In this document: positions 20,156 to 54,517 of the stretch, piece by piece
Layout of the letters: every line of letters begins with the position of its first letter
Numbering within the stretch: the stretch's first letter is position 1
From: Hymenobacter cellulosivorans
GTDB taxonomy: Bacteria; Bacteroidota; Bacteroidia; Cytophagales; Hymenobacteraceae
Length of the DNA: 64,000 nt
Assembly: GCF_022919135.1 (NCBI RefSeq)
Contig: NZ_CP095049.1
Span: 3,414,501 to 3,478,500, forward strand
Direction: 5' to 3'
Translations under genes and position numbers: made by a program
Notes under the pieces: model-generated
What the model was told of the DNA's origin: nothing
The model's input: the letters and a program-made list of their open reading frames with translations, nothing else
Database searches by the model: none

Positions 20156-20162
20156 GTAGAGC

Positions 20163-20643
20163 TGGTGATGAGTCTGTAAGCCGGGTTTTGTCCGTGTTGC
20201 CACGGCCCCACCATTTATCTAGGCCAGTCCTCGCGGAAAGGCTCCATCAACCTACCCGCTGGCGCCGGACGAGCCGCCCGGTGCACTTCCCGAAGGACGT
20301 GCGTGCCAGCTTATTTGGTCTTTCAACCCCTGAGGTTTACCCAGCCGGCCTGGTCACCCAGCCGCTGGTGCGCTCTTACCGCACCTTTTCACCCTTACCA
20401 AAAGGTGAGATGGTGAATTAGTGAAATGGTGAGTTTTTCGTTCTGCTTGCGCAGATTGAACAGCAACTCACTAGTTCACCATCTCACCACTCACCGCCTG
20501 GCGGTACTTTTCTGTGGCACTGGCTGTCCTGGTTTGCTTTACGCGTGCCAGTCCTTCCCGTTAGGAAGCAGGGTGCTCTGCGTTGCCCGGACTTTCCTCG
20601 TCGCCGGAGTTGCCTCCCTTGCCGCGGTGGGGCGACCCATCAC
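20163..20643 (-). ncRNA. rnpB: RNase P RNA (type A) with an enlarged P9-region helix
   Basis: Minus-strand RNA containing the conserved P4-side sequence GAGGAAAGTCCGGGC (20599-20585), the core GGTAAGGGTGAAAAGGTGCG and GGTAAGAGCGCACC, and the 3' P4 partner with AACCCGGCTTACAGACTCAT. Helix P1 is exact: GTGATGGGTC (20643-20634) pairs with GACTCATCAC (20174-20165), with a few G-U pairs, which fixes both ends. It is the RNA subunit of RNase P, maturing tRNA 5' ends. A long simple-sequence hairpin (20404-20495) replaces the short helix usually found just before GGTAAGGGTG. Transcription probably starts at 20643 from the TACCTTTG box at 20657-20650. Confidence 0.95.
20404..20495. repeat. Simple-sequence inverted repeat inside rnpB
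   Basis: Arms 20404-20433 and 20467-20495 share the core GGTGAGATGGTGAAYTAGTGA as inverted copies, separated by a 33-nt spacer. The element lies between the conserved CAGAAAAGTACCGCC and GGTAAGGGTG segments of RNase P RNA, where type A RNAs normally have the short P9 helix. It resembles the element next to amn (7821-7914). Confidence 0.85.
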
Positions 20644-52571: not shown

Positions 52572-53306
52572 ATGAAAAAGGTACTGTTTTACGCCCGGGC
52601 TCTGCCCATGCGCGCCGCTGCTGTGGCCTGGCGGCTGTTTCGTTTGCACCTGGGCCTGTCCATGGCCATTGGCTGGTCGAAGCTGGTAAGTCTGTACACG
52701 GCTACCGAGGCCGCCAAGCTTACGGCCGTGGGGCGCTATTTTCCGGAGTACTGGCTGAACCGCTTCGCGCAGCCCGTTCCCCGGCCGTGGGCCGTAGCGG
52801 CTGCTGCTTTTACTATCCTGCTGCTGCTGACCACTGGTCAAGCGCCAGCTCAAAACCCACCGGAACCCCTGACCTGGCTCCAGCTGCAGCGCTTGGCCCA
52901 GCCCTGGCATGGCACGCTGACTTACCTAGACTACCGCTCCCAGCAGCCCGTCACGCTGCCTACCAAGCTGGTTGGAAGGGCATCAGCGGCCGGCCAACTG
53001 ACGCTGGATTTCATCTACCAGGAACCCAGTGGCCGGCAAGTCACGGGGGCCGACCAAGTGGAGCTGTCGGCCGACGGACGAACCCTGACCTGGGACGCCG
53101 TGGTACTACGGATAAACCAGAACGCAGTGTCGCCCAATCAAGATTGGCTGCTTGTGCTGGAAGGAGAGGGGCAAGACGATGGCAAAGCTTGCCTGGTTCG
53201 TAAGACGGTGCTGCTATGCGCTGGGCAACTATCTGTCAACAAAGAGGTTAGGTATGCCAGGGTGCCGACTTTTGTAACCAGAAATACTTATTTCTTTTCA
53301 AAGTAA
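52572..53306 (+). CDS. Hypothetical membrane-anchored protein
   Basis: A 244-residue protein. Residues 1-80 hold amphipathic and hydrophobic segments; the clearest membrane segment is AVAAAAFTILLLLTTGQAPA (about 75-94). The remainder looks like a soluble periplasmic beta-domain (HGTLTYLDYRSQQPVTLPTK, LTLDFIYQEPSGRQVTGADQ, VLEGEGQDDGKACLVRKTVLLC). No known family was recognised. It follows the small exported gene by 20 bp and may share its transcript with the AraC-type regulator upstream. Confidence 0.65.
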   Translation: MKKVLFYARALPMRAAAVAWRLFRLHLGLSMAIGWSKLVSLYTATEAAKLTAVGRYFPEYWLNRFAQPVPRPWAVAAAAFTILLLLTTGQAPAQNPPEPLTWLQLQRLAQPWHGTLTYLDYRSQQPVTLPTKLVGRASAAGQLTLDFIYQEPSGRQVTGADQVELSADGRTLTWDAVVLRINQNAVSPNQDWLLVLEGEGQDDGKACLVRKTVLLCAGQLSVNKEVRYARVPTFVTRNTYFFSK

Positions 53307-53536
53307 GGCCCCTGGTACGACAAGGGGTAGTTGATAGCTAAACTCAGTTATTTTGCAATATTATGCCTATAAATATATGGGTGCTTTCTCTATAAATAAG
53401 GATGTTTTGATAAAAAGCCCTTCTAATTAGAGGGTGCATTTTGATAAATATACTTGTCTTGATAAAAAAGGGCTGTTAAAAATATGGCTCATCGGTATAC
53501 AAGTTATTTTTATTCTTGTATATATTTGCATTCAGT
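53307..53536. other. AT-rich region upstream of the phhA leader
   Basis: No gene is supported. The region is AT-rich and leads into the TATATTTG box. No -33 box is convincing. An open frame that starts at 53434 on the plus strand runs across the leader and terminator and is rejected as coding. Confidence 0.5.
53521..53528 (+). promoter_or_regulatory. -7 promoter box TATATTTG of phhA
   Basis: An exact match to TAnnTTTG. Transcription would start near 53535, just before the tandem ATG codons of the leader ORF (53537), which would therefore be translated from an almost leaderless transcript. The -33 side (TTATTTTTATTCTTG) is only suggestive. Confidence 0.55.
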
Positions 53537-53623
53537 ATGATGAACCAACCCGCGAAATGCTTCTGCCTAAATATTCGTCCTGTGATGGACGAAGTCGGGC
53601 CATTTTGCCGGTACGGAAGCTAG
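53537..53623 (+). CDS. Leader ORF upstream of phhA (28 residues)
   Basis: Starts with two ATG codons and encodes MMNQPAKCFCLNIRPVMDEV then GPFCRYGS, followed by TAG. Codons for Cys (three), Phe (two) and Tyr (one) are notable, but there is no run. The antiterminator strand AGTCGGGCC (53593-53601) is inside the ORF. It may be a ribosome-sensing leader peptide, or an untranslated structured RNA by coincidence. Its coding status is inferred only from position and start context. Confidence 0.55.
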   Translation: MMNQPAKCFCLNIRPVMDEVGPFCRYGS

Positions 53624-53689
53624 AAGCTCATGCTACTAACCCTCTGAAAACGTCAAGGCCCGACTCCTCCCAGGAGCCGGGCTTTTTTT
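53574..53689 (+). promoter_or_regulatory. phhA attenuator: antiterminator/terminator pair
   Basis: Hairpin TTCGTCC / GGACGAA (53574-53580 with 53587-53593) is followed directly by AGTCGGGCC (53593-53601), which is an exact 9-base complement of GGCCCGACT (53657-53665), the 5' arm of the terminator. The terminator pairs 53655-53668 with about 53672-53684 and has a T-run ending at the phhA start codon. The two structures exclude each other, which is the hallmark of a transcription attenuator. Confidence 0.72.
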
Positions 53690-54433
53690 ATGTCTCTTGC
53701 CATGGTAACCCAGCACTACGACCGGTACACCACCCAGGACCACTTGGTTTGGAAAGTATTGTTTGACCGTCAGACGGCTTTGCTGCACAAACGCGCTGCC
53801 CAGGTTTTCGAGCGGGGCTTGGCCAAGGCTGGCCTGCACCGTAATGCCTTGCCGCGGTTTGAGGAAGTCAGCAAGCGGTTGCAGAAGGCCACCGGCTGGC
53901 AACTGGAGCCCGTCAGCGGCCTGCTCGACGACGCTGCGTTCTTCGGGTTATTGGCCGAGCGTAAGTTTCCGGCTACGGTCTGGATCCGGTCTATGGCCCA
54001 GTTCGACTTCGTGCAGGAACCTGACTTGTTTCACGGGGTCTTCGGCCACGTGCCCTTGCTGATGGACCAGGCCTTTGCCGATTTTCTGCACTTTTTGGGT
54101 CGGGTAGCGGCTCAGCACCTGCACGATGCCCCCGCATTGACCCGCCTGGAGCGGCTCTACGGCTTTACGGTGCAGTTTGGGTTGGTAGAGGAGGAAGGCG
54201 CCACCCGCATGTACGGGGCCGGTTTGCTGTCCTCATCGGGTGAAATACACCATTGTATTGCCGATGAGAGTACCCGCCGCCCTTTTGAACTGGCCACCGC
54301 CTTGCACACGCCCTACAGCGAAGCGCAGCTGCAAGACCAGTACTTCGTGCTCAAAGGCTGGGAGCAGCTCACTGAAAGCGTCGCCGAACTGGCCGCTGTA
54401 CTGTCGAGTGGCTGGGAGCTGCAGCCTGCGTAG
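53690..54433 (+). CDS. phhA: Phenylalanine 4-hydroxylase
   Basis: A 247-residue member of the bacterial aromatic amino acid hydroxylases, converting phenylalanine to tyrosine with tetrahydropterin and O2. The non-haem iron site is FHGVFGHVPLLMDQAFADF (His-x4-His within the HxxxGHxPLL motif) plus the Glu in FTVQFGLVEEEGATRMYGAGL. GEIHHCI near the C-terminus is also conserved. Length matches bacterial PhhA. The start is taken as ATG at 53690, right after the terminator T-run; the ATG at 53702 is a possible alternative. Confidence 0.93.
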   Translation: MSLAMVTQHYDRYTTQDHLVWKVLFDRQTALLHKRAAQVFERGLAKAGLHRNALPRFEEVSKRLQKATGWQLEPVSGLLDDAAFFGLLAERKFPATVWIRSMAQFDFVQEPDLFHGVFGHVPLLMDQAFADFLHFLGRVAAQHLHDAPALTRLERLYGFTVQFGLVEEEGATRMYGAGLLSSSGEIHHCIADESTRRPFELATALHTPYSEAQLQDQYFVLKGWEQLTESVAELAAVLSSGWELQPA

Positions 54434-54458
54434 CGCCGCTTGGTATTCTATTTTCAAC

Positions 54459-54490
54459 AAAAAAGCCACTCCCTCGGGAGTGGCTTTTTT
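54459..54490. terminator. Bidirectional terminator after phhA
   Basis: AAAAAAGCCACTCCC pairs with GGGAGTGGCTTTTTT around TC. It serves both phhA (plus) and the convergent dienelactone-hydrolase gene (minus). Confidence 0.88.
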
Positions 54491-54517
54491 ACTTATATCA
54501 GGTAGTTAAGAAGCGGG

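Follow-up and report, generated by a model that had tools for sequence, protein, structure and literature searches.

The gene for phenylalanine 4-hydroxylase (phhA) in Hymenobacter cellulosivorans is preceded by an attenuator-like leader, which raises the question of whether this short segment is a conserved regulatory RNA and, if so, which signal it would read. The window (i.e. the whole stretch of 64,000 nucleotides that was analysed) carries the following elements at this locus:

53521-53528, + strand: -7 box TATATTTG, read in the sequence, which we take to be of the Bacteroidota type (consensus TAnnTTTG)
53537-53623, + strand: ORF1 (MMNQPAKCFCLNIRPVMDEVGPFCRYGS*), 28 codons, near-leaderless, ATGATG start, TAG stop
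53574-53580 with 53587-53593, + strand: hairpin P2 (TTCGTCC/GGACGAA), within ORF1, supported by pairing and covariation
53593-53601, + strand: antiterminator 5' strand AGTCGGGCC, within ORF1, pairs with the terminator 5' arm
53630-53647, + strand: ORF2, a mini-ORF encoding MLLTL* (ATG CTA CTA ACC CTC TGA), its stop directly before the terminator arm
53657-53668, + strand: terminator 5' arm, which is also the antiterminator 3' strand (GGCCCGACT part at 53657-53665)
53672-53682, + strand: terminator 3' arm AGGAGCCGGGC, followed by a T-run (53683-53689)
53690-54433, + strand: phhA, phenylalanine 4-hydroxylase (PF00351 Biopterin_H, E 4e-48)

An earlier note, made from the letters of this DNA, had described the -7 box, a 28-codon ORF with tandem ATG, a 7-bp hairpin and a segment AGTCGGGCC complementing the terminator arm; all of these are present as described, and just after ORF1 we found the second mini-ORF (ORF2), which that note did not contain. 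Its placement of the end of the T-run at the phhA start holds for the in-frame ATG at 53690, which the run abuts, but an alignment with relatives, made by eye, points to 53702 as the probable start; likewise, the tandem ATG of ORF1 is found in the window leader but is not general among the leaders of relatives. The terminator has an energy of -18.2 kcal/mol in the window species, the leader as a whole folds with a z of -4.27 (0/200 shuffles as good), and the best helix between ORF1 and the arm in leader L001 reaches a p of 0.01, the minimum attainable with 100 shuffles. Antiterminator and terminator are mutually exclusive, whereas hairpin P2 and the antiterminator arm, which have a single base in common (53593), may coexist.

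Two further structures were recorded in the window. By eye alone, as it was absent from the output of the pattern scan, we noticed at 54450-54495 a strong hairpin flanked by A and T runs (GCCACTCCC TC GGGAGTGGC), which sits between the convergent phhA and a dienelactone-hydrolase-like gene and is likely a two-way terminator. A class A RNase P RNA lies on the minus strand at 20161-20643 (240 bits).

Conserved pairing and spread of the leader

For 50 phhA loci of Hymenobacter (L001-L029 and L031-L051) the sequence 5' of the gene was read, and after prior removal of 5 duplicates or near-duplicates the remaining 45 distinct leaders formed alignment A1. The -7 box recurs in the same alignment column region in these 45 leaders, a recurrence that is not independent since the box was part of the pattern by which leaders were selected. 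Hairpin P2 is paired in 89.3% of cells (slid controls 36.0-57.8%), with 29 cells changed on both sides and two-sided change in 4 of the 5 counted pairs; the antiterminator is paired in 90.4% (slid controls 17.8-46.7%), with 13 cells changed on both sides, and the terminator in 87.3%. None of 500 shuffles matched the paired percentages or covariation scores of hairpin and antiterminator, but their two-sided pair counts were reached by 45 and 86 of the 500, respectively. Together with the common arm, the pairing of the antiterminator bears out the claim that antiterminator and terminator are mutually exclusive. Judged from base changes, column 161 of this common arm tracks the antiterminator rather than the terminator: its pairing with the antiterminator arm is standard in 39/45 leaders (35 T-A, 4 G-C), that with the terminator 3' arm in just 14/45 (an A.C mismatch stands there in 26/45). 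The 4 G-C rows belong to a single group (L017-L020), and thus probably reflect one event.

A wider set of 121 distinct leaders passed a leader pattern (which required ORF1 to be 20-42 codons long) that missed at least 4 true leaders, these showing ORF1 plus, by eye, an ATG mini-ORF. The ORF1-arm helix has at least 6 bp in 111/121 leaders, at an almost constant position (median distance to the start of ORF1 58 nt, 5-95% range 49-62), and several clusters show matched arm changes (GGGTC/GACCC, GAATC/GATTC, AGCGGGC/GCCCGCT). It is shorter than 6 bp in 10/121, and only 67/121 leaders reach p 0.05 singly against shuffles; the helix spans just 5-6 bp in L024-L028, L139, L173 and L197, and one of 6 bp is seen in L022, L050 and L108.

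For the search of further genomes, covariance model R1 was derived from 32 leaders of alignment A1 (the other 13 being left out as >93% identical). In its own genome R1 finds one strong copy (113 bits), the next match reaching 37 bits (matches of 37 bits or less were not read one by one). Among 204 family genomes, 102 of the 120 same-genus ones match at E 3e-12 or better, a count to be read in the light of R1 having been built partly from the same-genus genomes that it then searched. Sixteen further same-genus genomes carry a divergent-clade phhA (PhhA 35-38% identical to the window protein; G105 without a listed value) with a leader recognised by inspection or pattern (that of L201, missed in the printed stretch, was recovered by pattern). 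Overall, the leader is present in 118/120 Hymenobacter genomes; of the remaining two, G028 has a contig that ends near the gene start and G036 has no phhA match. Furthermore, the same leader type occurs in 8/8 genomes of a second genus, g27 (L116, L117, L118, L127, L181-L184). Seven weak matches in the family (L119, L120, L122-L126) were rejected, being by eye ordinary terminators past coding or tRNA ends.

The leader is followed by phhA in frame in 117/121 distinct leaders; in 3 of the other 4, PhhA lies within 75 nt of the R1 match, and for L178 there was none among the matches listed. In 108 of these 117 leaders fewer than 35 nt separate the T-run from the first in-frame ATG of phhA, and in 96 this holds for the last in-frame ATG, so that a promoter would hardly fit in between; transcripts from the conserved -7 box, lying 5' of the terminator, must cross the latter to reach phhA. 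Both points, along with the covarying antiterminator and the repetition of the arrangement in a second genus, weigh against a plain terminator of the upstream gene (an ORF on the same strand does end at 53306) with phhA transcribed unregulated from its own promoter, an explanation to which we give almost no credence. Comparison of sequences confirms the leader as a real and conserved element upstream of Hymenobacter phhA.

Some loci departed from this layout. In G008 a second, decayed leader copy (G008:C87:148378-148500; about 1770-2100 in L115) is followed by an apparent phhA remnant with an early stop, and the intact leader lies approximately 2.5 kb further downstream; in L025 and in the G118 locus the phhA match contains one in-frame TAG; and in L004, L009 and L015 a long intergenic palindrome (TCATCCTGAGC...GCTCAGGATGA or a close variant, as read on the opposite strand), possibly a mobile repeat, lies 3' of the first phhA.

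Two reading frames and the amino acids they encode

ORF1 was present as a candidate short leader ORF in the 121 distinct leaders and in the 4 missed by pattern. ORF1 has a pN/pS of 0.67 in frame as compared to 1.09 and 1.04 in the other frames (83 pairs); for ORF2 the values are 0.58 in frame and 1.58 and 1.43 in the shifted frames (64 pairs). The neighbour pairs compared are not fully independent. These lower in-frame values indicate that both frames are probably read, with peptides that are only mildly constrained. The reading as an attenuator, with its three stems and leader ORF, passed the tests of covariation and frame conservation that had been proposed beforehand.

ORF2 takes an ATG form in 97/121 leaders and starts with TTG, CTG or GTG in 7 (L017-L020, L168, L170, L175), while a convincing ORF2 is missing from 17. 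Within the 97, its start overlaps the ORF1 stop (ATGA) in 34 and follows it after a gap of 0-11 nt in 62; it spans 4-11 codons, ends in TGA (56), TAA (22) or TAG (19), and its stop lies 2-15 nt from the terminator arm (8-14 nt in 92/97). Frames +1 and +2 from the ORF2 ATG reach a stop in this pre-arm zone in only 25 and 17 of the 97, the frame 0 stop being there by construction of the ORF2 definition. In L040, L041 and L044 ORF2 is one codon shorter than in related rows, and in L015 a start at the ORF2 position has no nearby stop, its frame crossing the terminator into phhA. A link between ORF2 loss and a broken antiterminator, suggested by L022 and L050, was dropped: L140 lacks ORF2 yet has an intact 9-bp antiterminator (L015 likewise), and those leaders of clade 3 and g27 that are mismatched at the base in question mostly retain ORF2.

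With regard to the sensed residue, no run of codons for it was found in the window-type ORF1s. The earlier note had considered sensing of Phe or Tyr codons, and this is not upheld, as neither residue exceeds its share in the 25 long ORFs of the window (Tyr 29 vs 31.6 expected, Phe 25 vs 35.7, in 29 cluster representatives). A classical Tyr (or Phe) attenuator, in which scattered codons would suffice and the loss of a run would be merely a weakening, is therefore disfavoured by this comparison, and also by the position of Tyr, which falls within residues 2-16 in only 11/29 representatives and at codon 26 in L001, where a stall would, in the folding model, favour termination. It draws support from whole-ORF1 Tyr above dinucleotide shuffles (29 vs 18.4, sd 3.7; Phe slightly up, 25 vs 19.1, sd 3.5), from the fact that PhhA makes Tyr, from the proposal of a role in Tyr synthesis for the Echinicola vietnamensis enzyme (encoded beside prephenate dehydrogenase, according to PMC7311316), and from Tyr-rich ORFs on phhA in other genera and at nine second-copy Hymenobacter loci (see below). 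On balance we regard it as unlikely.

The third residue that had been named, Cys, fared ambiguously: it occurs in 119/121 ORF1s, looks strongly enriched relative to the long ORFs of the window and is above dinucleotide shuffles (43 observed vs 27.1, sd 4.4, maximum 41 in 300), but in the cluster representatives frame +1 gives an equal Cys share (5.1% vs 5.2%), so that the enrichment is not decisive. Moreover, in whole ORF1s Asn (58 observed/32.5 expected) and Met (30/14.8) are also above dinucleotide shuffles, and in codons 2-13 Met (z 8.3), Gln (4.9), Asn (4.5) and Cys (4.0) exceed base shuffles, with Phe mildly up (2.3) and Tyr not (-1.1), all z values being inflated by the shared ancestry of the leaders. 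As the Cys enrichment is accompanied by that of Met, Asn and Gln, Cys sensing is not claimed; going by codon content, no single amino acid stands out in the window-type ORF1. The absence of a Tyr run suggests that the signal would be the overall flow of ribosomes, a scarcity of several amino acids, or another one.

A further explanation is a peptide that arrests the ribosome upon sensing a ligand (TnaC-like): ORF1 or ORF2 would stall the ribosome at high levels of a small molecule such as Phe, which would suit a catabolic enzyme, and the domain HgmA_N (homogentisate pathway) was found in 23/23 Hymenobacter genomes checked. The mild coding constraint on both ORFs accords with this explanation; the constraint is nevertheless weak, the ORF2 peptides vary, the ORF1 C-termini diverge widely (CRYGS, CGYER, GRCNR, ALTEDEA, RVLSN), and by eye no conserved C-terminal leader-peptide residues were found in the 121-leader list. 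We accordingly hold an arrest peptide to be very unlikely.

Ribosome position as the putative switch

The RNA was folded up to the terminator 3' arm with a masked ribosome footprint of generally known size, at equilibrium and not kinetically. In leader L001 the modelled probability that the arm is sequestered in the antiterminator is 0.87 without a ribosome, 0.9-1.0 with one on codons 2-15 and 0.0-0.1 on codons 17-27; it returns to 0.9 at the ORF1 stop and declines from 0.6 to 0.2 along ORF2, where some of the drop arises because the mask reaches into the terminator arm. Across 114 leaders (7/121 were left out, having no hairpin call) the predicted means are 0.57 with none, 0.73 early, 0.20 in the middle, 0.56 at the ORF1 stop and 0.36 at the ORF2 stop; exceptions are L006, which varies little over ORF1, and L025, unchanged on ORF2.

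ORF1 is open in frame, its arm can pair with the terminator 5' arm, and the mini-ORF stops beside that arm. From this sequence and conservation basis we consider it rather likely that the ribosome controls transcription of phhA by attenuation at this leader, in a variant of the classical scheme that has two ORFs. Several results count against this: the lack of a codon run, the 17 leaders with no convincing ORF2, the short antiterminators of some leaders, the shuffles that equal the two-sided pair counts, the behaviour of L006 and L025 in the folding model, and the mixed outcome with the Tyr-rich leaders. In the model, a ribosome held at approximately codons 2-15 of ORF1, or no ribosome at all, would leave the ORF1 arm free to form the antiterminator, and phhA would be transcribed; a ribosome on codons 17-27 would cover the arm. 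Since the arm lies approximately 20 nt before the ORF1 stop, a ribosome at that stop is predicted to leave it uncovered. We infer that a ribosome re-starting on ORF2 would then sit between both arms, so that the terminator would win and phhA would be switched off; ORF2 would, in such a relay, retain the ribosome between the arms once ORF1 is left. This scheme presupposes that ribosome and polymerase are coupled in this phylum.

Against this attenuator stands a riboswitch binding phenylalanine, tyrosine or pterin, in keeping with the ligand-binding RNA that the earlier note had considered. The strong leader structure and the single target gene in the leaders checked would fit it; a search with the Rfam leader, riboswitch and T-box covariance models, on the other hand, gave no match at gathering score (weak sub-threshold ones alone), the conserved non-stem bases differ by eye among clades, such that no loop core is common to them, and the reading frames of two ORFs are conserved. 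No covariation was found in the long-range helices (P1 variants) that the minimum-energy fold contains and that were tried as a riboswitch core. A riboswitch is hence disfavoured, and we deem it highly improbable.

Tyrosine-rich leaders and known attenuators

Short ORFs with several Tyr codons lie 5' of phhA in the related genera g25 (L185, L186, L190) and g26 (L187-L189, L192-L194), before the second phhA of g27 (L206-L209), and before the second phhA copy at 9/9 Hymenobacter loci read (L004, L005, L011, L016-L021; further copies exist). Examples are MQAQHLTICNYYYYRPESLGRKEVACVQG (L185), SYCLSVYSYYSYYYRYYRNRS closing L187, MSRFRQSFYYYYPTCQPSGFG... (L206) and MTRFTSRYYAYAYYAPQGSGAAAACRNQE (second copy, L019). 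These ORFs are followed by a terminator, called in 8/9 second-copy loci (none for L021), and the second-copy Hymenobacter leaders are, from their codons and layout, likely classical tyrosine attenuators. Similar ORFs occur in further families (L223 and L244, the latter with no terminator called in the folding run), and L221 has one without a called terminator. Leader ORFs without a Tyr run were found in L204, L205 and L210 (g25), the script found no Tyr-rich ORF in L191, and in the 21 loci of family f11 it found neither a terminator nor an ORF with more than 3 Tyr. As a control, 22/24 Tyr-rich leaders were folded (2 had no hairpin call; L191, L221 and L246 were not included), giving modelled values of 0.54 with no ribosome, 0.63 on the Tyr codons and 0.45 at the stop, and 0.41 when the ribosome occupies the final six codons; the outcome was mixed, with a clear effect in L206 and L223 and none in L185 and L189.

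As such leaders occur both in other genera and at the second copy of phhA, Tyr attenuation of phhA may be ancestral, and the window device probably descends from the Tyr-codon attenuator still visible there. That this attenuator was rebuilt in Hymenobacter as a two-ORF relay (with a mini-ORF of 4-11 codons) that does not read one amino acid is a tentative proposal, which we put forward with more doubt than conviction; if true, the relay would report general ribosome flow or that several amino acids of high cost (Cys, Met, Asn, Gln) are running short. The window enzyme may serve either Tyr synthesis or Phe breakdown: genome G000 has a prephenate dehydrogenase domain as well as HgmA. PF02153 is found in 21/23 Hymenobacter genomes, the two without it (G007, G016) having a second phhA with a Tyr-rich leader.

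Leader-peptide transcription attenuators regulate amino-acid operons (trp, his, phe type). With these classical systems the window leader shares a short leader ORF, alternative antiterminator and terminator, and ribosome position as the proposed switch; it differs in having no run of cognate codons, in the added second mini-ORF, and in an antiterminator arm that lies inside ORF1. The Bacteroid-trp RNA lies at trp genes. It is listed as a candidate structured RNA of Bacteroidota (RF01692) in PMC2864571; neither the window, searched at Rfam thresholds, nor the leader, searched with lax settings, has a match to it. In the same phylum, a table of tyrA attenuators in PMC1173090 includes a putative attenuator before a pheA-containing cluster of Bacteroides thetaiotaomicron, which is alike in predicted attenuation and in its connection to aromatic synthesis, and differs in its gene and in being a database prediction. 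The ermB region (PMC8274638) likewise contains the ORFs of two leader peptides in one regulatory region, but there a different gene is controlled by erythromycin-induced translational attenuation. An attenuator of phhA was not found among the matches listed in the open-licence literature. The leader adds a conserved regulatory RNA of a phenylalanine hydroxylase gene in Bacteroidota that can be put to the test, and bears on ribosome-polymerase coupling in a phylum with near-leaderless leader ORFs. Among its closest counterparts are the Tyr-rich phhA leaders (L185-L190, L192-L194, L206-L209, L223, L244 and the second copies), which have the same target family, a short ORF and a terminator; they contain several Tyr codons and, by eye in those read, no second ORF, the window type being the opposite in both respects. 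With Tyr-rich, classical-looking leaders and run-less two-ORF ones attached to one gene family, it can be asked how attenuators switch their signal.
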